Positions 25,913 to 64,000 of a stretch of 64,000 nt of DNA are shown here, piece by piece. The notes beneath the pieces are model-generated. The model saw nothing but the letters and a program-made list of their open reading frames with translations, searched no databases and was not told where the DNA came from. Every line of letters starts with the position of its first letter. The first letter of the stretch is position 1. This DNA is from Crossaster papposus. Lineage: Eukaryota; Echinodermata; Asteroidea; Velatida; Solasteridae. The stretch covers positions 62,001 through 126,000 of the forward strand of contig JBAIAA010000739.1 in NCBI GenBank assembly GCA_037893245.1. The letters are read 5' to 3'. Position numbers and translations under genes: made by a program.

Positions 25913-27030
25913 TCAGCGTGGACTTATATCCTCATAGGCTGGATTATCTGCAGTGTGGAGAAAGGGAAGCAAAGTTAATAATTATTACATCCATCGAACA
26001 AAAATTTCAAAAAAAAAAGGGACAAAAATGATAACAAGTAGATAGTAAAATCAAATATGGTTGCAGACAAAAACCAATTCGTGCAAAATTTAATGTAAAT
26101 CCCGTGACAATCACCAACATTTATTAGGAAATGGCCAGAATAAAAATGATACAAAAAACAATGATGCAGAAACCATATTTCTTGCATGATTTTGAATTAA
26201 GTGCATTTCTGCAACAAATAGGGTCCTAACTTCGGGCTGAAATTAAAGGCCAAGTAAAAATAAACAGGTTTAAATTTCTGCCACATTACATAACTGAAAT
26301 TGGAATAAGTTACAAGATTTATAAACAGGTCAGCGAGCTTCGCTTTATCAAATTAATTTTAAAAATGATCTGAAAAATGAAAAAAATGAAAAAAAAATGG
26401 TTGCTGCGATTGACATTTGACATGCATAACAGACACGTCATACAAACCACATTGCCTTTAAGAATGCACAATAACTTTGTCACCTGTTTTTATTTTTGTC
26501 TTTTGTTTTACCCGTTTGTATTCAGTGCACTTTCGAAGCTGCACAAAGGACAAGAACGAAAAACAAACAGATGAAGAAAAAAGTTTAAGACAATTAAGAT
26601 CAAGTTGAGGGAGTCCGGTTGGCGTAGCAGTTCTTTCTTCGCCTTCCAACGCTGTGACCCGGGTTCGAATCCCGCCTGAGCCAAAATGTGGATCAAGTTT
26701 TCAGTCCCTGCCTGATTTCAATTGGTTTTCCACAGAATATTTTTCCTGGGTTTTCCTCCTACAGTGGATTCCTCTAAACAGGTTACCCACCTAAATCAAG
26801 AATTGAATAAATTAAATTAAATATGGTCTATTTGAGATGCGATTCTAATTTGTTTGAGGTAAAACATGATAAAGGTTAACAATAAATACAGCATGACAGA
26901 GTTTTCAAACAAAATTCTACTCTGACCTCACCTATATAAGAGGAATCTCTCGCTGTTGTGTTTGTGGTTCCTTTACTCCAGTTATTATTGGGCGTCCTGG
27001 TGGTCTGGTTTCGGGATGTGGAGAAAACAC
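25913..27030 (-). CDS. receptor 1 exons 23-24: cytoplasmic tail
   Basis: The exons are 26932-27030 and 25913-25947. Exon 23 encodes a Thr/Asn/Arg-rich tail segment. The last exon follows a strong pyrimidine-rich acceptor (25948-25949) and encodes only DNPAYEDISPR before TGA. NPAY is an NPxY motif, the class recognised by PTB domains and clathrin adaptors. Phase fits and an AATAAA lies about 100 nt on. This short exon is the least certain part of the model. Confidence 0.6.
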
Positions 27031-30000
27031 CTGTAGTATAAAAAAGTGGGTTTTATCACACCGGACTATTATACATACAAAACACGTCTTTAAAAAAGTA
27101 AATGAAGGATCAACATTTAAAAAACAGAGGACTTTCAAGGACAAAATTAAGATAAAATGGCGGCAGGACTTTTAGAAGTATAGTTTTCGTTGATACTTGC
27201 GATGTCCACAGCATAAACAAAGTCTTGCTTAGTAAAAAAAGGTTAGCAGGCAAAACTCCATGTGTTTTTTGTGCTAAGCAAAATACCTGCTGAATACCAG
27301 TCTCAAATAATATACGTCACCTTAAAATTATATTTGTAGCCCTGTTTTTTCCAAGGAAGAATTTCCGGTGCTAAGCAATTTTTTTGTGCTGAGCAGCTCC
27401 TGATTTGTATCACTGTTGAAGGGATTCTGAGGTCTTACAGCTTATATGACAACCTAGCACCCACCTGACTTGTCGCCGGTCTCTGGAGCGCAGTACGGGC
27501 AGCAGGCCTGCATCCAACGTTGCCGCATCTCTGGCTGCAGCAAGCACTGGAAGACGAACACGGCAAAGCCCTGCAGGGAGTTAAAGGCCGCGAAGAGGTA
27601 GCCGACTGTCAGGGCAGCCTCTCCGATGGCAAAGAAGCCCAGGATCCAGGTCAGGCCGAGCAGGATCGTCACGCTGACGGTGGCACGGAGCTGAGCCGTG
27701 ACGTTGAAGCGGTCCGAGTTGCTGATCTTGCTCCGGCGCAGCCGGCAGAGCTTCCAGGTGACCGCGACGAAGACGACGACGTTAAAGATGAGAACAAGGC
27801 AGACGGGAAGAAGAAAGGAGAGGGCGAACGAGAGGCCGCTCAACCAACATCTGAAGATGAAAGGGAATAATATAGATTGCAATTGAGTCTTCTATGATAG
27901 GCCCAACATCCAGCTCTAAAAAAAAAAATTCTTCACTATTCAGTGTCGTCCAGAAATGTGGATTCGAACTGGTTGAACATTCGCTCTATTCTCCTGATTT
28001 GCCACCCTCTGACCTCTTCCCAAAGTTGAAGAAGGAGCTTGATAATCATCATGTTGCCACAAACGATGACGTCATTTGATGCCGTCGACCACTTTCTGGG
28101 GGCCAAGATAACGGCTTCTACACAAAAGGGATCCGTTTGCTCTATGACCGCTAGACTAAATGTGGTAATGTAGTAAGGGACTTGTTGAAAAATAAATTAG
28201 TTTGATTTTCTAAAACCAACTCCTATCTTGGGCGACAAACTCAGTTATCAATCAATTCTTAACAAATATAATTTAAAAAAAACCACTTACAACCCAGTGC
28301 TGTTCCCATAGTTTTGGATGTCTACCCCTATTGTTGTTCCAACAATTGCAAGTGGTATACCTGAAAATACAAATTTGTTGATGAGCGGGATAATTATTTA
28401 CGTCTCATTTTTCTGACTGCTATCGGGACCAGGCTTTCTCAAATGCACAGCTAAATGCATCTAAATAAGAGAAGAAGCTTAAAAGTTAGTGAAGGAAGAT
28501 AATGATAAGGTGCGAGTATCGGGCTCCAGGGGAGGTTGAATGAGTTGTTCACATAGCAACTGTTCTTTCAATGGGGTGTACGTCGCTGGTGTTACCCGGC
28601 GTGCTACAATTATTTAATATCGTATACCAGTGAGATTGCTTTGTCTGTTTGCTGACTTTCTTAACCAGTTCACGCCGGATGACGTATATAAACGCAAAGT
28701 TTTCCCTAAATTCAAAACGGATGACGCATAAACACGCCAAGTTCAAGTTCGGAAATGTCCGTCAGCAGCGAGCAAAGCCAGAAATGCGTGGGTGTGCTTC
28801 TCGGCACTATTGGCCTAAACCTGCTTCGGATCGAGCTTCAATAAAAATAATCCCACCCCTCGGCTCGGCGGGAACCAGATACTTAATTAAATCAAAGTCA
28901 GGTGTCGATATTGAGCCCCCAGCTCGCTTATTTTTTTCGCTGAGGGGGTACTCGTTCACGGAGCCCATAGCTGTACTTAGCAAAACCAGTGGAATCGGCA
29001 AGGTAGAGGCGTTTGTTAACACTCACCCCATCCGATGACCATCATCTTAAGCAAGAAATGAGAGTAATACGTCGCGAAGACCTTCACCAAGGCCATGTAC
29101 ATGTTGAATGCCTGGATGACCATCCACGCCATGGCAACCAAGAGCGAGAAATGTAAACAGATTGCCATGGCAACGCACAGCTCGTCTGGGAGAGATTCCT
29201 TGTACTCGGCAGTCAGGGAGGCCCCGATGAAGAAAATGTTGACGAAGATCAACGAGATGACAAAGTTGACCAGGACCTTGGCACGTTTGCTGCCGCTGAA
29301 CTTTTTGCTGTTCCGAGCAAGTAAAAGACAACATGAAGGTGACATGAATGTAAATATAATAAGCAAAACATTTTTTTAGTCCCTGCAAGTCCATCACATG
29401 TTCTTCAGTCTTAAATCAAATTAGGTAAAGTCACTGGCTATTCAAATGAACTGTTAACAAAAGCATTCCTTTGTCATTGTTCTACTAGTTACTTGCAACT
29501 GGCGTTATGAAATACAAATTATGACTGGACTTGTGGCTGGACTTGTGACTGGACTTGTAACTGGACAATTGGGACTGGACAATTGGTACCGGACTTGTGA
29601 CTGAACTTGTGAAAGCTACTTGCAGAGACTTGAATACTAGCAGATTGCATCTCCACTATTTGAAAGATATGAGTTTGAGCAAATAAATTGCAGGTGTTTA
29701 TTTTGGTTTGAAAGAATGGAGAAAACTCACAAACAACTTTATGGAACTACAAAGTTTAAAGTTTACTTTGGACACAGCATTTTATGTTGAACATCATTTA
29801 AAAAAACGTCGGCTCATTGATTCGCATGTCAGAAAGAAAATTTTTTAAAGCAACGATAATCACTCACTCATTCAGTTTTGCTCTTGATCTGGGGCTGTTG
29901 GAAGAAAGTAAGAAATAAGATCAACACGAGAAAACAAAACACTATGATTTGGGTGCAATTCTGGGAACGTTAAAAATGTCAACAATGCTCACAATCGCCA

Positions 30001-33000
30001 TAGGTGCAACTACATCATTTAGAGGAATTGTAATGTTCTTAATACTAAATATTTTAATATTGCTTAAAAGTAATATGTATACTTGGATTTAAACTGAATT
30101 ACACCAAAAATTGCTCGATTGATTGATTGATTTTGTGTGCACACTTTGGACAGCGCCATATTTAGTTTTTCAATGAATAATATATTTCAGCTGGCATACG
30201 TATACAAATTTTATGAAAAATGGTTTAGATTTTTGCTTAATTTTAAATTGAAACGGGCAGCTATCAACAAATAGCGGCAAAATACTTGTATGAATTTTAA
30301 AACTAGTTGTGCTGTTAAAAATGCTTGAAAATTGCTTTCGCGAAGAGTGACTTTTGCGCTGTGTTTTGGCAATTGACGTTTGTTACAAACTAACCAACGA
30401 ACTCGAACAAAGATACTGACAAATTGGGAGACTGCCAACATAGTGCCGGTCCGGCACTGCGGAGGTTCAAGTCCAGCCTTGCCAATTTCTTTGTTCTCTT
30501 TGAAATATTTGAACTAATTAATTAACTAACTAACAAATAAACAAACAAACAAACAAACTAACTAACGAAGGGTGGACAAGGCGATTTCTTCAGCTTCTTA
30601 TTTACCTGCAGCTAAAAATCTAGAACAACAACTATAAATAGAAAGTTAATTAAGAATAGCCTCACCCGCAGCATGTGTATGTAATTAGAGTCAACGTCAG
30701 GCCAATAAGGGACAGAGCGCATCCAACGTACGATACAACAGACAAGGCAAGTTGGTGTTCTGGCGCGAAAGTAGGACCCTCGTATATGTCCTGAAACACC
30801 CAAAAAACGAGAGAAAAAATGGTGTCAGTAAACAAAAATTCTTCAATAAATCAATAATCAATATCTATTAAAAAATAAAAAAAAATACAAGTTGAAGAAA
30901 AAAAATAAAAAATTTATCAACGGCAATTGTTGAAAATGTTTTTATGGTAACTCCCAAACATTTTTTGTAAAAAATATCAAAATTTGCAAGTACTGGTTTT
31001 CCTTGTTCATTAATTCCCTTTATTTTTAGTTTCTGTTGAAGAGAAACATGAAACCCAAATTTAGTGCACAAAAAAAACACCTCACACATGAACTCCTAAA
31101 ACACAAATTCTTCACAAATTTTCCCCCACCTCCTAAATTGGAAAGAAAAATAGCATTAAATTTTGTGTCATATTAAACTTTGATAAAATCTGTACAAAGT
31201 GTTAAATCAACATTCAAAGTGTGCTGTCAGTGAAGACCACGCTTTAAAAAGTTCAATTTAAAACATACATCGAAAGCGTTGAATTTAACATTTTGAAAGT
31301 TGAATCTATTTTCTGAATCTATATCAGTTTAATATGTGTCGATAATCCAACTTTAAAATTGTGGTCACTGAACGCACAATTATAATGTTGATTTAATACT
31401 TTAGTTTTAAGCGTGTGTGTCACTTTTATAATCTGTCACCATCCAAACCCAAGTTACACAAAGTTTTGGTTCACATAATACCGTGCCCCAACCCCAATAC
31501 AAAACAAATTTAGAAAGAAGAAATTCATGTAAGTAAAATGGCTTCAAGTCTATCTTTTCAAAATTGACGTACCATCAGCATGGCAAAGTTAGTGAGATGG
31601 CTGCACTTGCAGACAATGTCGCTGTCGTCAATGTCGTTACTGATAAACAGGCTGCAACCATCAGTTGACCAGCCACCCCATCCACCTAGAAAACAACCAT
31701 CGAGTGTTAAATTTACACAGAAATAGTACTATGGGCTTTAGCCAGTCGGCCATATTGAATTAAAAGTGAGGCAACATTTTCTTTTTTGGACTTGCAGAGA
31801 GAAATTACAATACCTCCAAATAGGCACTTAGGGAGACAATCCCATAGAGATGTACACAAACTTAAAACAGTCCTAACTTGTTTACCCTAACCCTTTTCTC
31901 TAAGATCTTCGAGATTTATGCTATTTAGACCCAAACTCTGTCGTTCTAGGACAACAATAACTCCCAAATAGCGTTTTTAGGGTAGCTAGACACTTAGGAA
32001 GACAGTGAAAAGTTTCCCTAAGTGCCACTGTCTCCTTATTACCTAAAAACTTACGCTAATTTCTCTCTCCAAGTGCCTATTTGGAAGAATTAAGGCAATG
32101 ACCTAATGTTAATTACAAATTAATACCAGGTTTTGCTGATGAATAATTATAAATTTGTGATTAAACATATTAATGTTTTAAGCCACATTTATTTAAAAAT
32201 TGAAAGTGGGGCTAGAATGCAAAAATAGTCTGGCCCCATTTAATTCAACAGCTCATATTTTATAAAAGACATTCAGGAAACATGACCAAAATGACTTTCT
32301 TGGGAATTAGGTACATGAACCCAGGGGCAGAAAATTTATTCGAAACTTGAGACTTGAGATTTCAGAAACAATTGCCACTAACCATTTTCTTTCTCGTCCC
32401 AAAACACACAACGGGGGTTGTCTGCGTCCTATGCAAAAAAAGAAAAAAACAGTCTGTATTTATTTGCACCAAACAGATAAAATATGATCTTTGTATATCA
32501 ATACTCAGTAATTTTTAACTAGAATTTTGTTCAAGAAATTTGTTATTGATAATTAATTTTGGTGAAAAGTTTGTTTAAAAAAAGGATTAGCCCGACTATC
32601 ACAATATTTATTTTGAGCTTGAAAACCCTAAAAATTTTAATTTCAAAATGGAGCCTATCTTTTCCCTGAAATCCCGAATTCCATGGCTGTATTCTGGTGA
32701 TTCCTTTTTACAACTTTTATGAACAAATAAAATAAATTGGTAACAAAGTTGGAACAGGTGCCCATTAAACAATTGGGTTTTTTTTCAGTTTTAGGACGGG
32801 TACGGCAAGTTATAATCCTACCATTCTTGCTTTACGGAATGAAATAGTAGCAGGCTCGTCCAAGTCGGTAATGTTCAGGTCTCCAACGGCAGCCGAAATG
32901 ACAACGCCGTTAATAATAGTCTTGTAACCCGCACGACACGAAACAGAAATGCAGTCGATTGATGGGGTGGTACTGCCAAGGGTTGAGATTGCCATCGCGT

Positions 33001-36000
33001 TGGTCGTTGTCGCCACCACGCCGCCTGTGGTTGGGGTTGTGTCAACCTCCTTCTCTTGTTTGTTGGAGAGGGTTCTGTTCCTGCTAGCAGTTTGAATAAC
33101 CTGTCGAATAGAATCAACGTACTTGTCATAACCATGGAGGAAGGAAAACACAGTATTAATTTATTGATGCAGGCTTGAGAATCAAACCATGTGTCACGCA
33201 GCAAACCTTTCCGAACATGTGCCATTTTCCTAACCCTAGCTTCGTCTCCATCTTTGATTAGTTCATGTAATTTGGCAATGGTGATGGAGCCGCAGACGAA
33301 GCCTATAAGCTAGGGTTTAGAAAAGGGCCACAGCTGAATAAATAAAAAGTAATATTTAAAGAGCTTTAAATTTGTTGTCTCTGTTCATCAGGAACGAGAC
33401 CATTTGTGTGACCAGCTCAAGATCATTGTATGTGGTCTCCTGGGTGGAGAGATGAAATTGTAGTAAAGTGTCTTGCTCAAGAACACAAGCTCATACATCT
33501 TCCCTGCTCATTCGGCCAGTCACATTCCAAATACTGTCTCAGCTGCCCGGGGAGTATCTCAGCTGCCCGGGGAGTATCTCATACAGCTGCCCGGGGAGTA
33601 TCTACAGCTCAATGCTGCTGTTTCGGCGCGAAGCAGCTATAACAACAACCATCTCCCCCCTCTACCCGTTTCACTTTTGGGTGGGAAGAACCAATAAGAT
33701 CATTTTTGCAAAATAGATCAAATTAATATTTAAAGAAGTGGTATCGGAAAGATAATTAAGAGAGAACGAAAACTCACGTCGAAGAATGTAGTTTCTTCGT
33801 ACATGACGAACTGAACACGTGAGAGGCGACTGCCGACAGACGTCAGCAGTGAATTTGGCAAATAGATGGATCCCTTGACTATCTCGTCCGTTGATGAGTT
33901 CTTGTTGTTTGCTATGATCGTATCGGCACTGCTGGCCGAGTCGGATAATACCACGTTTGGCTTTTGGCAAAAAACATGAAGAAAATGTTGAGTACTTTAG
34001 CTGCTTCAAATAATAAAAATGCACAAATGATACAATTGACCATTTGTGTGTGGAATTTAAATAATATCTGGTACACTGACTTGTTCACACAGCATGGCAC
34101 AGTTTGACTTTAAATTATCCAGACCAAAACAGTACACTGTTGCTATATCACGTGATTCGGGGCAAGCTCTTGCATAGTTACGTTAGAGACGCTCAGCACC
34201 AATATTGTTCACCATGGTTGAGAATGGTACAAAGACACCAGACCATTCCAGAGCCGGGGGTTGCTAGCGTAAGGCTTGCCCCGAATCACGTGATATAGCA
34301 ACAGTGTCTTTGGTCTGAAGAATTTAAATGTAAACTAGTGCCAAGCTGTGTGAACAAAACAGTGTACCAGATATTATTCAAATTCCACACACAAATGGTC
34401 AATTGGGTCTACTGTACCATTGATCAACAAATGGTCTTCCTTTGAATTTACTCATGGCAGCTATACAAAGTCGTATCCTCATTGAGTGATTCCCACAATG
34501 TCACTTTCCAGATTGTATTGTAAAATTAGGCATGATCCCCAGCCACACGGCATTATGGTGTTTATGACTTCTGACTAGCGCCCTCGAACAAAGATACCAA
34601 CAGGGCAAGAAAGCTCGGTTGGTAGAGCACCGATCCGGTATACCGGAGGTCGAAGGTTCCCGTCTTGCCAATTTCTTTGTTCACTTTGAAATTTATGCAA
34701 ATTTACCTAGTGAGTTTCCAATTGTGGTTTATTTGTGTATATATTTTGTTGGCAGAAAGTACTAAGGCATAAAAAAAAAAAATGTTATGTTGGCGTAACG
34801 GGCCCAAAAAAATAGGGTAGGTAGGTCGGGATTTTTTTTTCTTTTTTTTTCTTTTTCTTTTCCTCTCAGCAATGAAAATGATATGTTTTATAATTGTTTC
34901 AGCCGGTAGTGATACACGATAGCGTGTCCAGGTTCAATATTTACACAATCCACACACACAACAATGAGAAACGGTTAGAAATGGTTTCAAACGTATTTAT
35001 AACTAGATTTATATAGATTTTAATCATTATATTATATAAAAAAAATATCCAGGGTCGGCCGTATTTTTAGGGTCGGTCGGGTTACGCCAACATAACATTT
35101 TTGTTTTTATGCCTAATTGTAGTGTTATATTTTTACACTCACGTGGGCATTGCCTTGGTCTTTTCCAATCCCGTAAAACAAAAGTCCATTGTGCATCGGA
35201 TCGGTGATGTCTATCAATGCAACGTCGACAGAGGGCGTGTCTTCCTCCAGAACATTGGACGGAAACCGAACGCCGAGGTTGAACGCATCAAGGGAGCGCA
35301 GAAGCCTATGTGGGATAAACACAAGACATTGAAGGTTTTCAAATTCCTCTGTGGCTCTACAGATATTTGTAGCGTTGAATGTCCAAACCGTGTGATCTTT
35401 CTCAACTTTTTGGATTTTGGTCTCCTAGTCATTATGAATTGATGTTCCTTAAAGATCAACCAAAAGACGGGGCCTTTACAGCTAAAGCTGAGGTTTCGAA
35501 ACCCTTTTAAAACCTGGGGTATTGTGGCAGCGTTTAGGGTTCGTGACTCAGAATCAGAGGGTCGGGGTTCGAATCCTGCGGCTGGCCATATGTTGTGTCC
35601 TTAGGCAAGCCACTTCACCACAACTTGCCTTTCTCCACCCAGGAGTATAAATAGGTACCGGCATTTGCTGGGGAGTAACCTGCGATGGACTGGCATCCCA
35701 TCCAGGAGGAATAGAAACATTCGCAGTCGTTTTATGCTACTGAAACCGGAGCTAAACACCGGCCTGATGGCATGGCCCAGGACAGACTTATTTAAGTTAT
35801 AAAAACCACTCCTAATAAGAAATTAAAGGACCTAGGTTTTTTTTTTCTTGCAAAAGTATAAATTCCTGTTCTGTGTTCTAACTGCACTTAAACAATTGCT
35901 AATTGTCACTTTACTGCACATTTCTAGGATGGCAATATAAAGCAATCGACATTACGCGAATATCGACATTACGCGAATATAACTTCAATGAAGAGCGCAA

Positions 36001-39000
36001 CATTTTCACATTATGATGCAGTCGAAAGCCCGAAGAAGTACTTTAGAACACAAACTTTAATTCTTAATAACTTTATTGGCAATGGGCCTATAATGTTATC
36101 AACGAATTTGCACGCATCTGACCGATTGTATATCGTGAAGCAGGGTGGTAGTCGAGTCCCTGCAAGTCCATTCACCAGTCCTTTCATGAAGCCAGTCACA
36201 AGTCCCTTCATAAAGGCAGTCACAAGTAACTGGATGAACAATGACAAAGGAATGCTTTTGTCTAAGCTGATTTGAATAACTTGTGATTTGAATTGGAACT
36301 GAAGGACTTGTGATGGACTTGCAGGGACTTGTGATGGACTTGACTACACATCCCTGTCGTAAAGTGAAAACAATCAAATCCTATACATTTAAAAATAAGA
36401 CAAACTGCTGAGCACATATTCACCTTGATGATGAGTCATCATCCAGTTGACTTCCTACCAATTGGTCACCTGGTACTCTGCTGAGTTGGTCCGCAGTCTC
36501 CACAATGTTTCCAAACACGCCTGGACTGTCCTCCTCGTAACTGCCGAGGGCGTCCGCTAAATTCTCAAAGGTGTTCACAGCGTTGGCGACATCGTTTGGG
36601 TTTAGAACATCCGGGACTGACGTCACGCCGATCAATATCTCTGAAACCTCCAGGGCATTTTCTATTGGTAGGTAGACATCGATTAGACAGACATTTCCAC
36701 AAAATGGTTATTGATTATGTGAAACTGGTTCAGTAAGTCAAGGGCCTTTTTGAATCTCTGGCTCGTTTTTAATTTATAGGCTTAATTGATCTATTAATTG
36801 ATTGACAGGAAAGTGATCGATTGCTTATAAGTGATCTTTGATTGATCAATTTATTTTTAGATAACCACTTGATTTATTAACTTAAAAAAAAAAATTTTTA
36901 CTGACTATTGTCTAATTTATTTAACTATTAATTCTTTTATTATTAATTTTTTTTTTTAATTAATTTATTTTTGGATAACCAATTGATTTATTATCTTAAA
37001 ACAAATATTGCAACACTCAATTGATTCATTGTATATTTTAATTGATTTATTGAATATTGATTGATTATTATCTACTGGTTAAATGTTATCCAATTTATTG
37101 ACTATCGTCTAATTTATTTAAGCATTAATTTTTTTTTTTAAATAAAATTGATTATTTTATTAATTTGAGGACTGTTGGTCATTTTATTGATTATTGATTT
37201 TATGATAATCGATATCAAATTCTTCTACCTCTTCTAATGGTGACGTTGGATAGTTCCTTCAGGATAGTAGAGGCTGTCGGGCATTCGCTGGTAATAGGCT
37301 CATCCCAGCCACTTGAAGCATCTCCGCTGCAAACACAAAATAGAAAAAAAAAAGTTTCAAAACAAAAATGTCTTTAAACGGATCGTATACTTTTGGTAAT
37401 TACTCCAAAAATTAATGGCAATAACAACTTACTTGGTAAGAAGTACAGCAGCTTTGGATAGTATAATGCATTTTTAGAAACTTTTCACTTCGAAGTACTG
37501 CGGTTATGGAAAAAGATATCACTTTTTATCCCCAAAAATTTGAATTTGAGAAGCGTTACTGCAGTGACGTTTCTCAGATTGTGTATTCCAATGCAGATTA
37601 TTCTTCCTGCGTGGACATATAACCGCTCCAGATTTTCGGCAATATCTCAAAATTGCTACCACTTTTGAAATGAAATTTGTACAGGTTAGTTTTATGGTAT
37701 ATATCTATAACTATAATAGATTGAAACAAACAGTGGGTTCCAATTACCAAACGTATACGATCCCTTTAACAATTGTGAGTCGGCTTTAGAAAAACATATT
37801 ATTATTCTTAAACTATTTTACTTGTGAATTGCTAGTAGACTAACTTGTAAAAACCCGTTTCCAAAAAGTCAATAACTTCAATAGATATATAATTATACCA
37901 TTGTCTTGTCGCGCTCTCTCCCTCGAGGTCATAGGCACACGGGAGAATGGCAGTGTCTCCCGTAAGGGTCACCGGCCACAGAAACGTGCCCGTCACTCCA
38001 CGAGTCTCTTCGGCAGGGCATCGCGATATAACCGGTTCGCTGGTTCTTGAGGCTCGGGTAGAAGATACTGCCAGAGTTGTTGCTATAATGTGAACAAAAA
38101 AAGTTTATTGACAGGCCTCATCAAAAAGCTTTTTAAGAAGTGATTTGTTCAAAGAACCAGGTATGATCCAACAGATACAGGTTGATTTGTTGATAGCCGT
38201 GGATTGTTGGCGCTGACCAAATGATAAGTTGATGTGGGAAACAGGTCATTGGTGGATGGTTGCCAGAGTTGTAATCGAGTCTCTGCGAGTCTCTGCGAGT
38301 CTCTGCGAGTCTCTGCGAGTCTCTGCGAGTCTCTGCGAGTCTCTGCGAGTCTCTGCGAGTCTCTGCGAGTCTCTGCGAGTCTCTGCGAGTCTCTGCGAGT
38401 CTCTGCGAGTCTCTGCGAGTCTCTGCGAGTCTCTGCGAGTCTCTGCGAGTCTCTGCGAGTCTCTGCGAGTCTCTGCGAGTCTCTGCGAGTCTCTGCGAGT
38501 CTCTGCGAGTCTCTGCGAGTCTCTGCGAGTCTCTGCGAGTCTCTGCGAGTCTCTGCGAGTCTCTGCGAGTCTCTGCGAGTCTCTGCGAGTCTCTGCGAGT
38601 CTCTGCAAGTCCATCACAAGTCCCTGCAAGTCCCCGCAAGTCCCCGCAAGTCCCCGCAAGTCCCTGCAAGTCTATCACAAGTCTATCACAAGTCTATCAC
38701 AAGTCTATCACAAGTCTATCACAAATCTATCACAAGTCTATCACAAGTCTATCACAAGTCCTTCAGTCTGAAGTCAAGTCACTAGCTATTCAAATGAACT
38801 GTTAACAAAAGCATTCCTTTGTCATTGTTCAACCAGTTTAACTTGGGACTAGCTTTATGAAAGGACTTGTGGCTGGACTTGAATTGTAACCAAACTTGTG
38901 AAAGGACTTGCAGAGACTCGAATATCTCACGGTTGCTTGCTTTAATAATTTGTTAATTTAGTTGATGAATTGTAAATTAAAGAATGCTTTATGGCAAGGT

Positions 39001-42000
39001 AATTAGGATCCGATAGATTTGTTTATGGTGCCAGAAATCACTATGCCAAAATGGCAACTGACAAACATTTAGTATTTGTATTGGAAACATTTGGAGATGT
39101 AAATAAATTACACATAAGAGTGAAGAACTGTTCTCTTAAGTTTGAAAAGGAACGATTGAATTGGTTAACTAATAACGATAGCTAAAATATGGCATTACCT
39201 GATGTTGATGGCGAATTCGTGTTTGGGAAAGGAAACTGGTATCCCCCTTGATAAAGAAAGAAAACAAGATTTTTGTATAAATTACATCTGCATTTTTTTA
39301 TATTTTTTTCTTGTTTTTTGGGGGGCTAATTCAATGGATATTTTGGCACTTGCTGCTTAGCACAGTCATAACAACAGCTTGGTTATCATGCAGCCAACTT
39401 CAAATTTTAACAATCCTTTTGGCTGCCTGGTTCGCTGGTTGGCTTAATTGTACTGAAATCTGCTAAGCATCAGTACGTTAAGCTTTCTAACTTAGGCCCC
39501 TTATCCCGAATCAGACAATCAAAGAATGGCTATAAATGGGCCAAATTAATAATTCAAAGTAGAATTTTGAAGAGAGACTTACTCAAAATGGCCGATTCCG
39601 GGGCGTTGCACTGGTCTCCCTGGCAACAGTACCGGCACACGGAGTTCTCCGTGCCAGCGTTGCAATCGTTCTGGTTCTGTTGGGCGTTCACCAGACAGGC
39701 ATCGAGGGCCTGGCAGCCTTTGGTGATCAGGTATCTCCCGCCGTTGACTCGCACCACGTTTTGGCAGGCCGGCTGCGTAAAGTGAGCAGAAAAGTGTGCA
39801 TAGTTATCACAAGTCCGTCACAAGTCCGTCACAAGTCCGTCACAAGTCCGTCACAAGTCCGTCACAAGTCCGTCACAAGTCCGTCACAAGTCCGTCACAA
39901 GTCCGTCACAAGTCCGTCACAAGTCCGTCACAAGTCCGTCACAAGTCCGTCACAAGTCCGTCACAAGTCCGTCACAAGTCCGTCACAAGTCCGTCACAAG
40001 TGTGTCACAAGTCCGTCACAAGTCCGTCACAAGTCCGTCACAAGTCCGTCACAAGTCCGTCACAAGTCCGCCACAAGCCCGTCACAAGCCCGTCACAAGC
40101 CCGTCACAAGCCCGTCACAAGCCCGTCACAAGTCCGTCACAAGTCCGTCACAAGTCCGTCACAAGTCCGTCACAAGTCCGTCACAAGTCCGTCACAAGCC
40201 CGTCACAAGTCCGTCACAAGTCCGTCACAAGTCTCAGTAATACGTTAACTTCTCCGTTGACTTGTCTCCGTAATTATTCTCGACCAGCTCTAAAATGGAA
40301 GCATCAATCATTATAGTTCATATCAAATTTCAGTTATGAAAAACAGAGCAAAAATATGAAACTCACGTTTGTTCCTGAACATCGCTGTTGGGCCAAATTA
40401 CAGGCTTCATTGGTGGATGCAGACTCACAAAGGTAACAGCGCTGAACTATATGCAGACAAAAAATAAACATTTTTTCAACATTTAGCCTACATTTTACAA
40501 AGTTTTGCCCACAAACAATAACAATTTCAAACGTCATACATTCTATACAATGTATATATGCTTAGAAGTGAAGTAAAAAAGTGTAACTTATGATTTGTAG
40601 AAAAATGAATGCACTTACTTATAAATATTGCTTTGTATATTTAAATTTTAAATTTAAGGGCCTGATATTTTCATCTTAAAAAGATCTTTATCGGAGAAAA
40701 TATAACTGTGTAAAACAAGAATAAAGTGGAATTTTAGTAAGAAAGCGGAATGCATTGGTATACACAGTAATATTTGAAAAAATCCGGACTCTGTTTGTAC
40801 CGATTTTTATTATTTACATATACGCAAATTTTAACATGTAAATATCACATTTCTTTTTAGCCTACTTCTTTATATTTGTTATTAATTGTTTTCTTTACAA
40901 ATTTTTTTTTTTTAGAAAAACTGACTACCTGGTATGCAGAACGTTGCATTTTTAACTGTCTGTAGTCTCACGGACTGCGGTGTAAAACACTGGACCCCCA
41001 TAGCGCTGAAGTTGGGCCGAGTGCCCTTATTTAGAAGCCAGTTCTTGAACCAGAGGAGAGTACAATCGCACACCAAGGGGTTGGTCACCATAAATCTGAG
41101 AAGAATAAAAAAATGACCACCAAACTTTTCAGTTGGGCTGACTTAATTATTTTAGGTTTTATTATAGACTGCCATAGACTACATTGTATCCCCACTTTTC
41201 ACAACTTGGCAAAACAATTCTCAAATATTTCTTTTTTATTTTATTTTTTTAAATTTTCTGTTTAGTTTCATAGGGGCTATAGATGACTCCGGAGAAAAAC
41301 AATTCCTACAAAATAGAGCAATTTCATTGCCCAATTTTATCTCAATTTTACAAATTCAAGGGCCACAAATTGCACGAATGGCTAAACAAAATTAGGGGCA
41401 TCTCAAATCATGACTTGGGGCAACTTTGGGTCTTTTTACCTAAAAAGAGTTTTGTGAGCAGAGTTACTTTAAAATAAAGTATTAATGACAATGACACATT
41501 GACAAAAATGTCAGTGGTAGACCTGTCACAGAATTATGTAGGTTGAATCGATTAAATGATAATCGAACTCACAGATTTTGTAGTCTGTCCAATACCATGA
41601 TGAATGAGGGACTGATCGTTGCAATATCGTTGTTTGCCAAGTCCCTGAAAAGGCCACCAAATAAAAAAGAACAAATGTTAGTTTTTCTCTCAAATCTTTC
41701 TCTTTGCCCATTAAGAACTTCAGACAAAATAAATAAATTGCAAATTGTAGGGAAATTCTTTCACAATAAGGGATAATTGGAGGAGGGTGAGAGGGTCACA
41801 TGTCAACCCCAAAGCAATCTAGGGTCACTGGTATTTTTTTTCATTTCACTACAGACACACCTTAAAATACTCACTTATTATTTTAGAGGGAATATATATT
41901 TTTCAGAGGTAAAAGATCTTTACCACAGAACCTCAAGAATTGAACATTCCACAAAGGATCACCGTACAAAACGGGGTAACTTTGGCAATTTTGGGGAAAC

Positions 42001-44536
42001 TTTGACAGATAATTTATAGGAGTAAATTTGTGTGATATGAGATCTATAAAATATCACAACAAATCCAGTTTGGTATTATTTTTCAACTGTTTCTTATTTA
42101 TTTAGATAAATAAAATAACAATACAAATACAAGTTACACCATAAAATAAAAATGATTGAACAAAATTGCAAAGTTACCACGTGTAACGGTATTTAACCCT
42201 AATACACTAGGCCCCATCTTCCCCACAGGAAAAATCTTTAGAAATCGAATTTCTCCACATTGAAAACGCTACAGCGTTTGAGATTTCAATAGGGGCTTAA
42301 AGAAGAACAAAAGAAAGATATACAAAGATATATATTCCCTCAAGTATGTAAATCTGTACTCACAGATGTCTGAGTCTGACTAAGGGCAGATAAGGCGCCA
42401 CCTGGTTTTCATTCTGCAATTGGACACTGTTGTCACTCAAATCTCTGACAAAAAAAACAAAATTTATTCAAAAAAAGTTGAAAAGCACAACACAATAATT
42501 GTAACCCCTTGACACCGCCGCCCGCTAATATCAGTCCGGAATGCTGTTGTCAGCTGTTCTAGCCTTAGAACAGGGGCCAATTTCATAGAGCTGCTAAGCA
42601 CACAAATTTGCTGAGCATGACAATTTGTCCTTGGCAAAAACAAGGTTACAGACCAAATTTTTACCTGATCTTTATTGTTCTGGATTAATAATCAGCTGTT
42701 TTTTTTGCTTAGCATGAAAAACATGTATAATTTTGGCTGGTAACCTGTTTTTAATGAGCCAGACTTTTGTGCTAAGCAATTGTTTTGGCTTAGCAGCTCT
42801 ATGAAATTGGGCCCAGGTGTGTTCCACAGCTACACGCTCAGGCCATTGTGCAGTGCAGCTGCTGGACAACAGCTGCTGTGCAGTCACGCGTATAATTCAG
42901 CTAGTGAGGAATCAATACAAGCAACGGTACAGTTCTGTCAACCAATGATAGCATCTTAAACTTATTTGAAACTGAGAGAGAAAAAAACAGTACATAAAAA
43001 AAAATCGACTTTAAAAAGCAATGACACCTTTGCAATGAAGGATTTCCACTGACTCAATTGTATAGGCAGTTTTGTGCTTGTTTCCTTTTGCGATCGAGGA
43101 TCGAAAAACAAAAGAAAACAAAGGGAACAAAAGATCCTCGAAGGACGGTTTCTTTGTCCTCGATCGGCAATGGGGTTAGGTTTCAGTAAAGGAATAAAGG
43201 AAAACACAATAGGGAATCCTCGGTCGTAATGGCAATTCACAAACTATAGAGTTTTTGAGTGTTTGGGAATATTTTGAGTTTTGGAGTGTTTGGGAATATT
43301 TTGAGTTTTGGAGTGTTATTGAATAGGCTAAGCAGTTTTGATTTGAGTGTTTTGAAATATCAGACAGTTTTGAGTTTGAGTTTTTTTATAGAATAGGCAG
43401 TTTTGAGTTTTAAATATTTTGAAGGAAGCTATAGGCCTAAAGGCATATACCCAAGTAATAAATTATTCAGAAATGTTATCAAAATCTTATCCGCTCTACA
43501 GACAAATTTTTATTTTTCTTACAGTAATAGAAGCCTTGTAAGACCGATGAAAGCCCCTGCGTCCAGAAGATCGCTACGTATGGCGTTCTGCACGAGATAT
43601 CTGAAGAAAAATAGGACAGAAAAAAATACTTTCATAGAAAAAACCCCCAATAAAGTCCTTATTTTGTACCAAAATTGTGCGTGGCAAAACTTGCCTTGCA
43701 TGCGCAAAGGAAATACAGTTTTTTCGCGCAAAGGAAATACAGTTTTTCGCGCGCGGAAAGTCAACTGAAAAACGCTGCGAAAAATTGTCTCCTTGTTTCT
43801 TTGTTGGTTATTTGCATTAAACTTACAGTTCGCGAAGTTCGACCAAATTGGCGAAAACTCCATTCGCAAGTCCCTCAAATAGGTTGTCACTGAGGTTTCT
43901 GAAAGGGAGGAAAAAACAACATGCGGTTAATGAGTTATTTAAACAAAATTGAAATTGGTAACTGTTTTCGACGCAATACAAATTTATATTTTTCAGATGG
44001 CAATTATCTGCATGTGTAAGATCTTCGGAGCGGGTTTCTAATAGTGGAGATTCTTTTAGTAACGGATTTGAAAAAAATATATATAATTTGTATACATCTA
44101 ATATTTAGATTCACGAGACAGTGAATGGAAAAATCTCACAAATTTCAAACCAATTTGCAGAGATCTTTCAGCGCGTATAGGCACAAACATAAACACAAAA
44201 ACATTATTTGAGTTGAATGCAATAGCAAGATTGTATTTTTTGCAGAGTTTACGCTTACAGAATGTGGGTATCGTCGGGTATGCCTCGGGGTACGTTCACC
44301 AGGTTCAGCCCCGAGCAGTCCACGGTCTTCGTGCCGCCCGTGACGGTACACCGGCACAGCGGCGCTAAGGTGCCGGTGCTCTCGGCGTCACCGCACGCCG
44401 TCTGCTGCACCATGCCGGCCACCCGAGTCGCTCCCCCAGTTATCACCAGGGCGAGGTGAAGCAAGACAGACGCTGATGCGGCCAACATGCCTGTCAAAGT
44501 GAGTAGAGATGAGGATCGTCTTCTCGAAGGAACCAT
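25913..44536 (-). CDS. adhesion GPCR: LRR - Ly6/uPAR-like - HormR - GAIN/GPS - 7TM
   Basis: Twenty-four coding exons on the minus strand sum to 3387 nt (1128 aa). Each junction keeps phase. From the 5-prime end they start at 44536, 43898, 43600, 42444, 41644, 41095, 40446, 39772, 39246, 38082, 37326, 36661, 35305, 33960, 33100, 32428, 31685, 30790, 29888, 29307, 28360, 27850, 27030 and 25947; their ends are given in the module entries below. Domain order by residue: signal peptide (about 1-40), LRRNT (48-93), four LRRs (93-194), LRRCT (194-250), Ly6/uPAR-like (250-337), Ser/Thr linker, HormR (about 377-433), GAIN with GPS (about 440-784), 7TM (about 800-1060), tail. A plasma-membrane receptor of family B2, self-cleaved at the GPS and activated by the tethered peptide after it, follows from family knowledge. 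The ligand is unknown. A paralogue lies at 56739. Confidence 0.9.
26605..26825 (+). mobile_element. tRNA-derived SINE
   Basis: The head has box A-like GTTGGCGTAGCAGTT and a perfect box B GGGTTCGAATCCC, then a body (CAATTGGTTTTCCACAGAAT) and an AAATTAAATTAAAT tail. It is a different family from 16986. It lies in the last intron of the first receptor gene. Confidence 0.7.
27195..27405. mobile_element. degenerate GCTAAGCA-family element
   Basis: Contains TTGTGCTAAGCAAAATACCTG, GCTAAGCAATTTTTTTGTGC and GAGCAGCTCC, like the right halves of the copies at 16015 and 42573. The left end is decayed. Confidence 0.45.
27465..30790 (-). CDS. receptor 1 exons 18-22: seven-transmembrane region
   Basis: The exons are 30666-30790, 29868-29888, 29027-29307, 28291-28360 and 27465-27850. 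TM1 is ALSVVSYVGCALSLIGLTLT. A 21-nt exon encodes most of the first intracellular loop (SRAKLN). TM2-TM4 include VLVNFVISLIFVNIFFIG, ELCVAMAICLHFSLLVAMAW and FLLKMMVIGWG. TM5-TM7 read CWLSGLSFALSFLLPV, ATVSVTILLGLTWILGFFAI and FNSLQGFAVFVFQCLLQPEM. The conserved ECL1/ECL2 cysteine pair and the TM6-TM7 family B signatures are intact, so the receptor core looks functional. A mariner remnant sits in the intron before exon 22. Confidence 0.9.
27915..28196 (+). pseudogene. mariner-type transposase remnant (C-terminal part)
   Basis: One frame reads ELVEHSLYSPDLPPSDLFPK, then LKKELDNHHVATNDDVI, a TGA, then QDNGFYTKGIRLLYDR, a TAG, and TKCGNVVRDLLKN. SPDLPPSD carries the last acidic residue of the mariner catalytic triad. 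At least two stops break the frame and the N-terminal two thirds are missing, so it is dead. It is inserted in the intron between exons 21 and 22 of the receptor gene, in the opposite orientation. Confidence 0.85.
28668..28890 (+). repeat. dispersed repeat, copy 3 of 3
   Basis: A relative of 605-850 and 25261-25460: CCAGTTCACGCCGGATGACG, ATTCAAAACGGATGACGCAT, GTCCGTCAGCAGCGAGC and GGATCGAGCTTCAATAAAAA. It ends just upstream of receptor exon 20. Confidence 0.55.
29378..29640. mobile_element. partial hAT-type MITE copy
   Basis: Shares AAGCATTCCTTTGTCATTGT and surrounding bases with the elements at 4147, 36141 and 38264. AGTCCCTGCAAGTCCATCAC at one end and ACTTGCAGAGACTTGAATAC at the other are its subterminal repeats. 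Terminal CAGGG and target duplication are not visible, so the copy is truncated. Confidence 0.65.
30375..30500 (+). mobile_element. tRNA-headed SINE fragment
   Basis: Shares ACTCGAACAAAGATAC upstream and GCCAATTTCTTTGTTC downstream with 34575-34700. The box B-like GAGGTTCAAGTCCAGCC is intact; the anticodon half is partly lost. Confidence 0.5.
31201..31400. mobile_element. inverted-repeat MITE
   Basis: Left GTTAAATCAACATTCAAAGT faces right ATAATGTTGATTTAATACT. Imperfect inner palindromes include AAGTTCAATTTAAA. It lies in the intron between the GPS exon and the TM1 exon. Confidence 0.55.
31573..36661 (-). CDS. receptor 1 exons 12-17: GAIN domain with intact GPS
   Basis: The exons are 36424-36661, 35143-35305, 33778-33960, 32822-33100, 32383-32428 and 31573-31685. 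Early GAIN helices read VLNPNDVANAVNTFENLADA and LLRSLDAFNLGV. Later strands read IYLPNSLLTSVGSRLSRVQF, VVISAAVGDLNITDL and PRCVFWDEKENGGWGGW. The GPS is complete: paired tryptophans, DGC, then CKCSHLTNFAML, so autocleavage between L783 and T784 is predicted with TNFAML as the start of the tethered agonist. The acceptor of exon 14 (at 33961-33962) has a weak pyrimidine tract. Exon 15 carries a Thr-rich insert (TTPTTGGVVATTT) unusual inside GAIN, so its exact start could differ. Confidence 0.85.
34033..34405. mobile_element. 373-bp long-arm inverted-repeat element
   Basis: The left arm starts CAATTGACCATTTGTGTGTG and the right arm ends ACACACAAATGGTCAATTG. The arms match imperfectly for well over 100 bp each (for example TTGCTATATCACGTGATTCG against its complement near 34290). 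The transcript would form a long hairpin in the receptor intron. Confidence 0.85.
34575..34700 (+). mobile_element. tRNA-like SINE head
   Basis: GCTCGGTTGGTAGAGCACC is a clear box A and GAGGTCGAAGGTTCCCG a degenerate box B, followed by CTTGCCAATTTCTTTGTTC, shared with the copy at 30375. No CCA-ready acceptor pairing or anticodon loop is convincing enough for a true tRNA gene. Confidence 0.6.
34763..35115. mobile_element. inverted-repeat MITE, about 350 bp
   Basis: The left end AAGGCAT, an A run, then TGTTATGTTGGCGTAAC; the right end GTTACGCCAACATAACA, a T run, then ATGCCTA. Both arms also carry GGTAGGTCGGG/GGTCGGTCGGG. It ends 28 bp before the donor side of receptor exon 13 (35143). Confidence 0.8.
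35525..35795 (+). mobile_element. tRNA-derived SINE
   Basis: The head GTGGCAGCGTTTAGGGTTCG is followed by box B GGGGTTCGAATCCTGC. The body has CAAGCCACTTCACCACAACT, CCACCCAGGAGTATAAATAG and GATGGACTGGCATCCCATCC. The same body recurs at 50570-50830 and in reverse at 50345-50560. Confidence 0.75.
36141..36356. mobile_element. hAT-type MITE with 8-bp target duplication
   Basis: Starts CAGGGTGGTAGTCGAGTCCC and ends GACTACACATCCCTG. It is flanked by TCGTGAAG (36133-36140) and TCGTAAAG (36357-36364), 7 of 8 identical. The interior is near-identical to 4147-4380 around ACTGGATGAACAATGACAAA. It lies in the intron before exon 12 of the first receptor is read through to exon 13. Confidence 0.85.
37229..38082 (-). 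CDS. receptor 1 exons 10-11: hormone-receptor (HormR) domain
   Basis: The exons are 37899-38082 and 37229-37326. They read RCPAEETRGVTGTFLWP, then LPCAYDLEGESATRQC, then GDASSGWDEPITSECP. This is the C...W-P...C-P...ATR-x-C...W...C plan of HormR/HRM domains, which sit directly before GAIN in many adhesion GPCRs. The TG|C codon split by the intron restores the fourth cysteine, as in the paralogue. The TNSPSTS-ATTLAVSSTRAS stretch before it is a short O-glycosylation-type stalk. Confidence 0.8.
37374..37769. mobile_element. TTAA MITE (GGATCGTATAC family), copy 1
   Basis: Ends are TTAAACGGATCGTATAC and GTATACGATCCCTTTAA. Its interior (AAAAAGATATCACTTTTTAT, ACTGCAGTGACGTTTCTCAG) recurs at 51432-51826 (reverse) and 53451-53830. 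It has no coding capacity. Confidence 0.85.
38264..38928. mobile_element. hAT-type MITE swollen by internal minisatellite growth
   Basis: Starts CAGAGTTGTAATCGAGTCTC and ends GAGACTCGAATATCTC. It is flanked by ATGGTTGC (38256-38263) and ACGGTTGC (38929-38936), 7 of 8 identical. The right part (AAGCATTCCTTTGTCATTGT and so on) matches the other family members. The left subterminal repeats have expanded to about 480 bp. It is inserted in the intron between receptor exons 9 and 10. Confidence 0.8.
38277..38606. repeat. 10-bp minisatellite, 33 identical units
   Basis: The unit GAGTCTCTGC is repeated without visible error for 330 bp. It then passes into AAGTCCATCAC, AAGTCCCTGC and AAGTCTATCAC units up to about 38760. 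The perfection indicates very recent expansion. It is read in all frames as Ser/Leu/Arg-rich open frames, which are artefacts. Confidence 0.97.
39199..40446 (-). CDS. receptor 1 exons 7-9: Ly6/uPAR-like domain and linker
   Basis: The exons are 40367-40446, 39583-39772 and 39199-39246. Exon 7 opens with RCYLCESASTNEACNLAQQ and exon 8 closes with VCRYCCQGDQCN, the CC-x-x-D-x-CN ending of the Ly6/uPAR (three-finger) fold. Twelve cysteines lie between, slightly more than a standard domain. Exon 9 adds a short Pro/Ser/Thr linker. I know of no vertebrate adhesion GPCR with this domain. The same domain occurs in the paralogue (58717-59336), so it is not an assembly or model artefact. An 11-bp minisatellite fills the intron between exons 7 and 8. 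Confidence 0.8.
39808..40233. repeat. 11-bp minisatellite, about 39 units
   Basis: The unit CACAAGTCCGT is repeated with a few C/T variants (CACAAGCCCGT cluster at 40070-40125). The unit is a one-base variant of the CACAAGTCCAT repeat of the hAT-type MITE family. It fills the intron between the two Ly6/uPAR exons of the first receptor. Confidence 0.95.
40929..44536 (-). CDS. receptor 1 exons 1-6: signal peptide, LRRNT, 4 LRRs, LRRCT
   Basis: The exons are 44259-44536, 43827-43898, 43523-43600, 42364-42444, 41573-41644 and 40929-41095. The ATG at 44536 is followed by RRR and a hydrophobic stretch (LAASASVLLHLALVI). A pyrimidine-rich acceptor at 44549 just upstream suggests a 5-prime untranslated intron. 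LRRNT cysteines appear in LCRCTVTGGTKTVDCSG. Exons 2-5 each encode one LRR of 24-27 residues (NLSDNLFEGLANGVFANLVE, YLVQNAIRSDLL, DLSDNSVQLQ, DLANNDIATISPSF) with all phases 2-2, so repeats could be gained or lost cleanly. LRRCT reads NPLVCDCTLLWFKNWL and then GVQCFTPQSV. LRRs normally serve protein binding outside the cell. Confidence 0.85.
42573..42814. mobile_element. palindromic GCTAAGCA-family element, full copy
   Basis: Starts GGGGCCAATTTCATAGAGCT and ends AGCTCTATGAAATTGGGCCC, with strong inverted ends. Interior TTGTCCTTGGCAAAAACAAG matches 16015-16237. It lies in the intron between two LRR exons. Confidence 0.85.
43245..43420. repeat. short direct repeats of about 31 bp
   Basis: GAGTGTTTGGGAATATTTTG followed by AGTTTTG occurs twice in tandem, then decays (CAGTTTTGAGTTT). 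Simple, intronic. Confidence 0.7.
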
Positions 44537-62700: not shown

Positions 62701-64000
62701 GCTTATAGTTATAAGCAGAAGCACCAAGCAACTTAAGCAGAAGCAGAAGCAAAACAATTGCTTAAAAACATAACCTTTTTGTTTTACCTAACAACTTTTT
62801 CTTAAGCTTGCCTAGCAAATGCTTAGATAATTAGTGCTAAATGCTTAATGGCAAAAGCAAAAGCTTGTTCTTACGTATACGTTTTTAAACAATTGCTGAT
62901 CTGGGAAGCATTTGCTTGCAAGAAACAAGCTTTGCTCTTTCCTAAAACTAAGTAGAAACTTTTGCTAGCTAGCAATTTCTTTTTTTCATGTATAGAAATG
63001 TAAGCAAAAGCCTAACAAAAAGCAATTGCTAGTTTTGATGTAGTCGGCTCTATACGTATAGGCCTACAATAATTTGAAGCAACTCCCTAGAATTGTGGAC
63101 ATAACAAAAATGAAGAAACAATTTCATATATCTGGAATTCATCCCCGTTTCTGTGTACAAAAACCCATGAGCTATGGGCCACGACAAAAAGGTATGTCAA
63201 GGAGTTTTTTTCATTCCTAACCTGTGTTCTCCAACCCAAACCTTAAGTGCCCGTTGTATTAAACTGAGACATCCTTAACATAACATCAAAGGAATTCTTT
63301 CTAAAACTGTCACTCTCTACCCTTCTTCCCACTTCAACCGCAGACAACGCACTGGCCGTTTCTAGTCAACTCACCGTTGTGACATCCAACGCCGCAGCAC
63401 TGAAAGCTAATGACGTCACGATCACAGTGGACGCCCTCAAGAGACTGCTAGACGCCCTCATCCGGTACCCGGAGAAAGGACAGGTAATCTTCAAAGATTC
63501 CATGGCAACGGCCGAGCAGATGACGTATGTGAAGTTCGAGGAGCTGCTGGAGAGTCAGAAGTCAAACCGAACAACGAGCCGGTTAGCAGATCCTGTTTTG
63601 GGCGTCTCGATTAATGCATGGTCGATTCTTAACATAATATTCTGAGACATTTAACTTATACGGACATTGATTCCTTTATGCTCGAGTTTATCTCAAGAAG
63701 GAATCGATTATTGTTAACATCATTATGTCAGCTCGTTTTATTTCAAGCAAATACAAATACAGTGAGTCTATTCTACCAGCCAATGCAGGACATTGCTCCT
63801 TGACTATAAACTCAGAAAATATTGAATCATTTAGGCCTACTGAAAAAAATATGTAATTTCTTTTAGACCAGTCTCACAGGATTTGTTCACAGAGTGTCAA
63901 AACTTGGTGGTCATGTGTGGAATTCTTTCCAATTTCTTTCAGGCTTTTGCAACTGATCGACGACTTTGCTTTCCACGTTCCCTTTCTGAACGACTCGAAG
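56739..64000 (+). CDS. second adhesion GPCR (partial): LRR - Ly6/uPAR-like - mucin-like stalk - HormR - GAIN
   Basis: Eleven exons are visible: 56739-56965, 57422-57493, 58104-58273, 58717-58787, 59135-59336, 60073-60135, 60398-60901, 61458-61746, 62205-62314, 63344-63581 and 63943 to the window edge. Phases run 2,2,1,0,1,1,1,2,1,2, matching the first receptor where domains correspond. A signal peptide (FFPLFALFLVASFGGIQC) is followed by LRRNT (RCECLPVADAVLNVDCTG), one LRR (LTNNNIQLIQLRDFRRLDTL), LRRCT (NPLDCGCASTDFKSWV), the Ly6/uPAR-like domain (VCYKSCTNVTDGSACSSE; CVYCCQGDNCN), a Ser/Thr stalk, HormR (WCLAETAEGEWGSITWP; TC; FWGKPDMSECP) and the first GAIN helices (ITVDALKRLLDALI; LLQLIDDFAF). 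GPS and 7TM must lie beyond the edge. The donor at 58274 is GC, not GT. The predicted visible protein is 668 aa. Confidence 0.88.
57095..57353. mobile_element. palindromic GCTAAGCA-family element
   Basis: GGGCCAATTTTATGGAGCTG on the left, CAGCTCCATAAAATTGGCC on the right. It is in intron 1 of the second receptor. A half copy (GCTTAGCAGCTCCATGAAAC) lies at about 58868-59003 in its fourth intron. Confidence 0.75.
60398..60901 (+). CDS. receptor 2 exon 7: mucin-like tandem-repeat stalk
   Basis: A single large exon, phase 1 in and out, encodes about 168 residues very rich in Ser and Thr. From about 60523 it consists of four imperfect repeats of about 36 residues, each starting DS(M/V)VQ and containing a (S/P)YTxTGFQT-like core and SETV. 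The donor (ACAG|GTATTG) falls inside the fourth repeat; if ignored, the frame runs 77 nt more to a stop at 60976-60978. Dense O-glycosylation and a stiff extended stalk are inferred. The first receptor has only a short linker here. Confidence 0.7.
62355..62450. repeat. 28-bp tandem repeat, about 3 units
   Basis: GATAGGCTAGGCTAGGCTTC plus TAC is repeated three times. The unit itself is built of TAGGC words. Intronic in the second receptor gene. Confidence 0.85.

Follow-up and report, generated by a model that had tools for sequence, protein, structure and literature searches.

Results

Two LU-bearing adhesion GPCR genes arranged head to head

The window (the whole 64,000-nt stretch of Crossaster papposus DNA that was analysed) carries an adhesion GPCR gene on its minus strand, extending from position 44536 to 25913 (gene A), and a diverged paralogue on its plus strand, which was found by searching the window with protein A and runs from 56739 to beyond 64000 (gene B; Table 1). 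The two genes stand head to head, with their start codons 12,203 bases apart, and the exon models of both were read from genomic DNA alone. Splicing reconstruction of gene A yields 20 exons, with GT-AG introns and consistent phases, and a spliced frame of 3117 nt that encodes 1038 residues and contains no internal stop. The preliminary description of this DNA had joined the exons in phase; its boundaries 40929|40446 and 40367|39772, as well as the ends 44536 and 25913, were all reproduced exactly, and the 20-exon chain is open throughout. Two joins are ambiguous, both of them outside the LU region: the exon 18 donor has an alternative 3 nt downstream (GGGTT|GTAAG), which stays in frame and adds 1 residue, and other in-frame join sites are possible at exons 11 and 12.

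Table 1. Exons of genes A and B, with positions numbered from the first base of the window.
Gene	Exon	Position	Strand	Content
A	1	44259..44536	-	LRRNT (Pfam 0.0012, below cut-off), preceded by a hydrophobic N-terminus read by eye as signal peptide
A	2	43827..43898	-	LRR; 72 nt, phase 2-2
A	3	43523..43600	-	LRR
A	4	42364..42444	-	LRR
A	5	41573..41644	-	LRR
A	6	40929..41095	-	LRRCT, phase 1 at end; LRRCT_2 0.033, below cut-off
A	7	40367..40446	-	First half of LU domain; phase 1-0
A	8	39583..39772	-	Second half of LU domain, CCQGDQCN at end; phase 0-1
A	9	37899..38082	-	Ser/Thr linker, then HormR first part
A	10	37229..37326	-	HormR second part
A	11	36459..36661	-	GAIN first part; basis includes paralogue alignment
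A	12	35143..35424	-	GAIN; basis includes paralogue alignment
A	13	32822..33100	-	GAIN
A	14	32383..32428	-	GPS start (CVFW)
A	15	31573..31685	-	GPS with HL|T cleavage motif and start of predicted tethered agonist
A	16	30666..30790	-	TM1
A	17	29027..29307	-	TM2 to start of TM4
A	18	28294..28360	-	TM4 to ECL2; alternative in-frame donor
A	19	27465..27850	-	TM5-TM7
A	20	25913..25947	-	Short C-terminus and stop
B	1	56739..56965	+	LRRNT-like segment, preceded by a hydrophobic N-terminus read by eye as signal peptide
B	2	57422..57493	+	LRR
B	3	58104..58273	+	LRRCT-like from its alignment to A; on its own nothing in Pfam; GC donor
B	4	58717..58787	+	First half of LU domain; phase 1-0
B	5	59135..59336	+	Second half of LU domain, CCQGDNCN at end; phase 0-1
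B	6	60073..60135	+	Linker; phase 1-1
B	7	60398..60901	+	Ser/Thr-rich mucin-like linker; phase 1-1
B	8	61458..61746	+	Linker, then HormR first part
B	9	62205..62314	+	HormR second part
B	10	63344..63581	+	GAIN first part
B	11	63880..64000	+	GAIN, cut at window end; 105 more bases from C739:126001 on, then GPS and 7TM

Domain organization of gene A

Judged by its sequence, gene A is almost certainly an intact starfish adhesion GPCR gene, in which an ectodomain of the order LRRNT-4 LRR-LRRCT-LU-HormR-GAIN/GPS precedes the 7TM region. This order, including a 12-cysteine domain ending in CCQGDQCN, had been put forward in the preliminary description and is borne out by the spliced frame and the domain matches. 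Eight Pfam families are listed for the full-length protein. A 7tm_2 match above the cut-off (E = 8.2e-41, residues 756-996) identifies a secretin-type 7TM region, and GPS (2.4e-14) and LRR_8 (8.6e-12) are also found, as are LRRNT (18.8 versus a cut-off of 25.8) and Toxin_TOLIP at the LU domain (residues 252-332, 0.0052, 17.9 bits), both below their cut-offs. The LRRCT segment alone matches LRRCT_2 with a score of 14.7, below the cut-off of 23.8. HRM is absent from the full-protein family list, and the HormR segment alone matches it at 3.3e-4 (21.4 bits, below the cut-off of 26.2). No Ig family is listed in Pfam for gene A at E up to 1, nor is any GAIN model listed; the GAIN assignment comes from the last 88 of 313 residues, which align to the solved chains of ADGRG6 (2e-14) and ADGRG2 (3.3e-13). 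In searches of solved chains, the N-terminus matches a wide set of LRR proteins (195 sequences, of which the best 60 were viewed), and the best match of HormR is a weak one to CELSR1 (0.51). CVFW, the cysteines that follow it and HLT are all preserved in the GPS region, and cleavage within CSHLTNFAMLM is predicted after residue 734.

The segment between LRRCT and HormR is recognized as an LU domain, a small domain of the three-finger family to which snake toxins and certain modulators of the brain also belong. Searched alone, it matches Toxin_TOLIP in Pfam above the cut-off (1.1e-4, 23.3 bits versus 21.2), and UPAR_LY6_2 (4.4e-4) and UPAR_LY6 (1.9e-3) below theirs. A sequence search of solved structures places LYPD6 first (2.2e-5) and LYPD1, also known as Lynx2, next (1.7e-4), with unrelated chains appearing in the tail of the same search (ThreeFoil, 0.2; T-cell receptor, 0.97). 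The domain has 12 cysteines, the same number as human LYPD1, with which it shares 9 of 11 cysteine spacings, and its alignment to LYPD1 scores above every one of 2000 shuffles, whether or not the cysteines are held in place. The LU domain is described as having ten core cysteines, and LYPD6 as having one more disulfide, in loop 3 (PMC6600238), which fits a count of 12 rather than 10. The same source characterizes LU genes as typically consisting of two exons flanked by phase-1 introns (PMC6600238), and the LU exons of both gene A and gene B form such a unit, with phases 1-0-1. Unlike gene A, LYPD1 and LYPD6 are described as small single-domain GPI-anchored proteins, not receptors.

A diverged paralogue with the same architecture

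Gene B was followed into the 10-kb flank to the end of TM7, giving 18 exons and 1131 residues; its last C-terminal exon was not found in the window and the 10-kb flank. Its single GC-AG intron begins at the donor of the LRRCT-like exon (AAG|GCAAGT, window 58273/58274). The encoded protein consists of an LRRNT-like segment, one LRR exon, an LRRCT-like segment, LU, a Ser/Thr-rich linker encoded by two extra exons, HormR, GAIN, GPS and 7TM. Identity between A and B amounts to 42/108 in the LRR part, 31.6% (25/79) in LU, 43.3% (26/60) in HormR, 94/251 in GAIN, 24/49 in GPS and 50.6% (131/259) in the 7TM region. Pfam recognizes 7tm_2 (8.8e-38) and GPS (1e-13) in gene B and, below the cut-off, HRM (0.031 in the full protein, 8.4e-4 with the segment alone), and finds no family for the LRRCT-like segment alone. 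The HL|T motif is kept, in CDHLTNFAMLM.

The LU domain of gene B also has 12 cysteines and ends in CCQGDNCN, so that the LU signature CC-x4-CN is present in both genes. On its own it matches nothing in Pfam up to an E-value of 1, its best match among solved chains is SLURP-1 (E = 3.7), and 5 of 11 cysteine spacings are common to the LU domains of A and B. With the cysteines held, 24 of 2000 shuffles score as high as the alignment to LYPD1 and 4 of 2000 as high as the alignment to the LU domain of gene A. Given these weak profile and shuffle results, the assignment rests on the cysteines, the exon anatomy and the place of the domain. Gene B is the strongest new evidence obtained here, being a diverged paralogue in which the domain order, the number of LU cysteines (12) and the phases of the LU exons are those of gene A. 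The presence of a three-finger-family (LU) domain between the LRRs and HormR, as the preliminary description had claimed, thus holds at the sequence level, with two genes of this order in the window.

Relationship to known adhesion GPCRs

The 37 solved sequences listed for the 7TM region of gene A, with no ADGRA chain among them, are headed by ADGRG2 (E = 8.8e-52), ADGRG4 (2e-46) and ADGRG6 (1.4e-44), and the nearest solved chains of the GAIN/GPS part are ADGRG6 and ADGRG2, again with no ADGRA chain among the matches. The core of gene A therefore appears nearest, among the solved receptors, to ADGRG2/G4/G6 (group VIII), in a comparison that contained no ADGRA chain. To our knowledge, ADGRG ectodomains contain neither LRRs nor an LU domain.

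When the genome (1.02 Gb, 1841 contigs) was searched with the TM5-7 exon of gene A, 51 matches had an E-value of 0.001 or lower; gene A itself ranks first and gene B, at 56% identity, second, and none of the rest exceeds 41%. A tree of 116 columns was built from 27 of the 30 TM5-7 loci fetched and human ADGRG2, the remaining three loci (L052, L053 and L055) being left out for stops. Genes A and B group together (91/90) and make up, with ADGRG2, a cluster (99/97) distinct from the remaining 25 rows, a placement that carries a long-branch warning and has ADGRG2 as its sole outside reference. The three omitted loci are TM5-7 matches with in-frame stops, perhaps pseudogenes, and two of them (L052 and L053) lie 23 kb apart on the same contig (C499).

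The preliminary description had compared gene A with receptors of the GPR124/125 type. ADGRA2/ADGRA3 (GPR124/GPR125) have LRRs and HormR before the GAIN domain, with an Ig domain between, whereas gene A has LU, not Ig, between LRRCT and HormR. Because an LU domain stands at the place of Ig and the nearest solved cores are those of ADGRG, we do not favour a GPR124/125-type receptor; since ADGRA is absent from the matches, the comparison leaves some room for such a kinship.

Discussion

LU-bearing receptors in starfish

Adhesion-GPCR-like starfish proteins with an LU domain were in print in 2022 and 2024 (PMC9410279, PMC11595613), namely LyAr2 (XP_033635706) and XP_033635539.1 of Asterias rubens and LyAp2 of Acanthaster planci. 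In the 2022 account, LyAp2 and LyAr2 are treated as parts of larger sequences, annotated at NCBI as adhesion GPCRs, and as closer to LYPD6 (PMC9410279). These three proteins resemble A and B in that they come from starfish, have an extracellular LU domain close to LYPD1/LYPD6 and include two from one species; in the passages available, the published accounts make no mention of LRRs, HormR or domain order, and the likeness is one of description only. Genes A and B are presumably orthologues of the LyAr2-type proteins.

The preliminary description had suggested a lineage-specific receptor class and had measured it against vertebrate architectures. That yardstick does not apply, since the host is a starfish. 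The combination of LU with a receptor does recur in starfish, in the two genes found here and the three published proteins, and its novelty is weakened by the reports of 2022 and 2024. As for the full LRR-LU-HormR-GAIN order, no description was found in the literature covered, which comprised open-licence papers, with supplements outside the scope; the available text of PMC6267866, PMC13197933, PMC4302439 and PMC13409769 holds nothing on this architecture. One unclassified adhesion GPCR with an LRR is described in Ciona (PMC2396169). What is new here is the full architecture, the exon cassette and the head-to-head pair, the idea of a starfish adhesion GPCR bearing an LU domain being already known.

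Alternative readings of the LU exons

For gene A, the exon chain, the domain order, the GPS cleavage motif and the duplicated architecture are established. The best explanation overall, and in our judgement a probable one, is an intact receptor with a captured LU module that works by a tethered-agonist mechanism.

The LU exons might instead be an alternatively spliced option, with the main receptor devoid of LU. The cassette is symmetric (270 nt long in A, 273 nt in B), and skipping it keeps the frame (the LU-less A protein is open, with 948 residues); isoforms lacking LU are therefore possible, and a receptor without it could be the main product. Nevertheless, the 12 cysteines and the domain as such have been kept in both paralogues despite an identity of ~32%, which argues for LU use in at least one isoform of each, and we consider it unlikely that the main receptor lacks the domain.

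Along a line suggested by the authors who described LyAr2, the LU domain might also be a Lynx-like modulator of a nicotinic receptor, acting in cis and with the GPCR part serving as its anchor. The LU domain of gene A does resemble LYPD6 and LYPD1/Lynx2, and it is regarded as a fair assumption that LyAr2 has in echinoderms the role of Lynx2 in mammals (PMC11595613). However, an earlier paper of the same group calls the grouping of LyAp2 and LyAr2 with Lynx2 irrelevant, because these are larger adhesion GPCR sequences (PMC9410279), and the intact GPS motif and 7TM region of gene A point to signalling rather than mere anchoring. We regard a role as anchored modulator as quite unlikely.

That the LU exons belong to a separate LU gene of the kind that encodes many GPI-anchored three-finger proteins in starfish, nested in an intron of an LRR-HormR receptor gene or reached by read-through, is highly improbable, because phase 1 meets phase 1 at both borders with no stop and gene B repeats the same LU pair in the same place and phases. 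Single LU genes are nevertheless many in starfish, with 48 LU-containing proteins in Asterias rubens (PMC11595613), and contig C985 of the present assembly has three LU exons, with tails rich in Thr and Pro, near which no convincing exon of a receptor was found.

A possible mode of action and origin

Adhesion GPCRs in general are cleaved at HL|T within the GPS and are activated by the tethered agonist thus freed. For an intact receptor with a captured LU module, we envisage that the LRR and LU domains engage a partner, which may sit on an adjacent cell, in the matrix or on the same cell, that the GAIN domain cleaves itself at HL|T after residue 734, and that ligand binding or pulling would free the tethered agonist TNFAMLM and thereby render the 7TM core active. 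The site of action may be the coelomocytes or the coelomic epithelium. This scheme of LRR/LU binding, GAIN self-cleavage and tethered-agonist activation in these tissues seems to us evenly poised between right and wrong. By analogy, an integrin-like protein would be the best guess at the ligand, since Lystar5, another starfish LU protein, pulled down an integrin alpha-8-like protein (PMC11595613).

As to origin, the LU domain is a LYPD1/LYPD6-type module, carried in a symmetric phase-1 two-exon cassette, and exon shuffling probably brought it in before the duplication that gave rise to gene B. A review of 2019 prefers the term "proto-module" for LU to that of a bona fide mobile module, on the ground that few proteins carry it in unrelated contexts (PMC6600238). 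That two paralogous mosaic GPCR genes both contain LU as a clean phase-1 cassette is good evidence for its mobility as a module.

More tentatively, and in our judgement less likely than not, starfish, and perhaps echinoderms, might possess a distinct ADGRG-like class in which an exon-shuffled LYPD1-type LU domain senses the ligand and governs how the tethered agonist is freed, the domain being perhaps spliced in or out. If so, signalling receptors with an LU domain would come in two kinds, these and the TGF-beta receptors, a family that the same 2019 review presents as the transmembrane flavour of LU proteins (PMC6600238). The TGF-beta/activin receptors are likewise transmembrane signalling receptors with an LU-fold ectodomain (PMC6600238) and, unlike gene A, are kinase receptors without LRR, HormR or 7TM; activin receptor type-1 appears as a weak match in the LU searches of solved chains (E 8.3 and 10).

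Other LU exons and genomic surroundings

At E up to 1, a genome search with the LU exon of gene A recovered itself and three exons on C985 and missed gene B, and a search with the LU exon of gene B recovered itself, gene A (E 0.12) and a weak match on C93 (E 0.71). Since such searches miss a known paralogue, their sensitivity is too low for counting LU receptors. A scan of the whole genome with Pfam UPAR_LY6 gave no match anywhere and is uninformative. The three C985 exons (L006 at 103949, L007 at 78783 and L008 at 94683) are each followed by Thr/Pro-rich coding sequence. Protein A, searched against C985:60001-140000, matches only these three LU exons and two chance-level stretches (E 3.2), with no convincing receptor exon; they look, within this region, like ordinary LU-mucin genes and were rejected as further receptors.

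The second LU exon of gene A is flanked by two intronic minisatellites: one with an 11-bp unit (window 39807-40233, 38.8 copies) in the intron upstream, ending 34 bases before the exon, and the other with a 10-bp unit (window 38276-38611, 33.6 copies) in the intron on the other side. Elsewhere in the window, a 21-bp tandem array of ~120 copies (19888-22414) lies just upstream of exons of the rolling-stone (Rost) family, which are recognized as open frames on the plus strand at 22505-22768 and 23231-23959 (PF21534, 5.8e-23 for the second and 9.1e-4, below the cut-off, for the first). A 333-residue open frame (6835-7833, plus strand) has a weak Tc3-type transposase match (0.026, below the cut-off), and a 437-residue frame (8161-9471) matches no family at E up to 0.1. 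In the wider assembly, contig C1841 is a mitochondrial genome of 16,330 bp. Five genetic codes were compared on its COX1 (tables 2, 5, 9, 13 and 21); four of them keep the gene free of stops, and table 9 (echinoderm and flatworm; AAA Asn, ATA Ile) yields the expected conserved residues. The order of its tRNAs and the placement of ND2 and ND1 on the opposite strand match asteroids, as expected for a starfish host. Contig C8, of at least 5.2 Mb, contains COX1 matches in the standard code and without stops (L020, L022 and L023), one full-length and one in two adjoining pieces, which are perhaps bacterial sequence in the assembly, from a symbiont or a contaminant.
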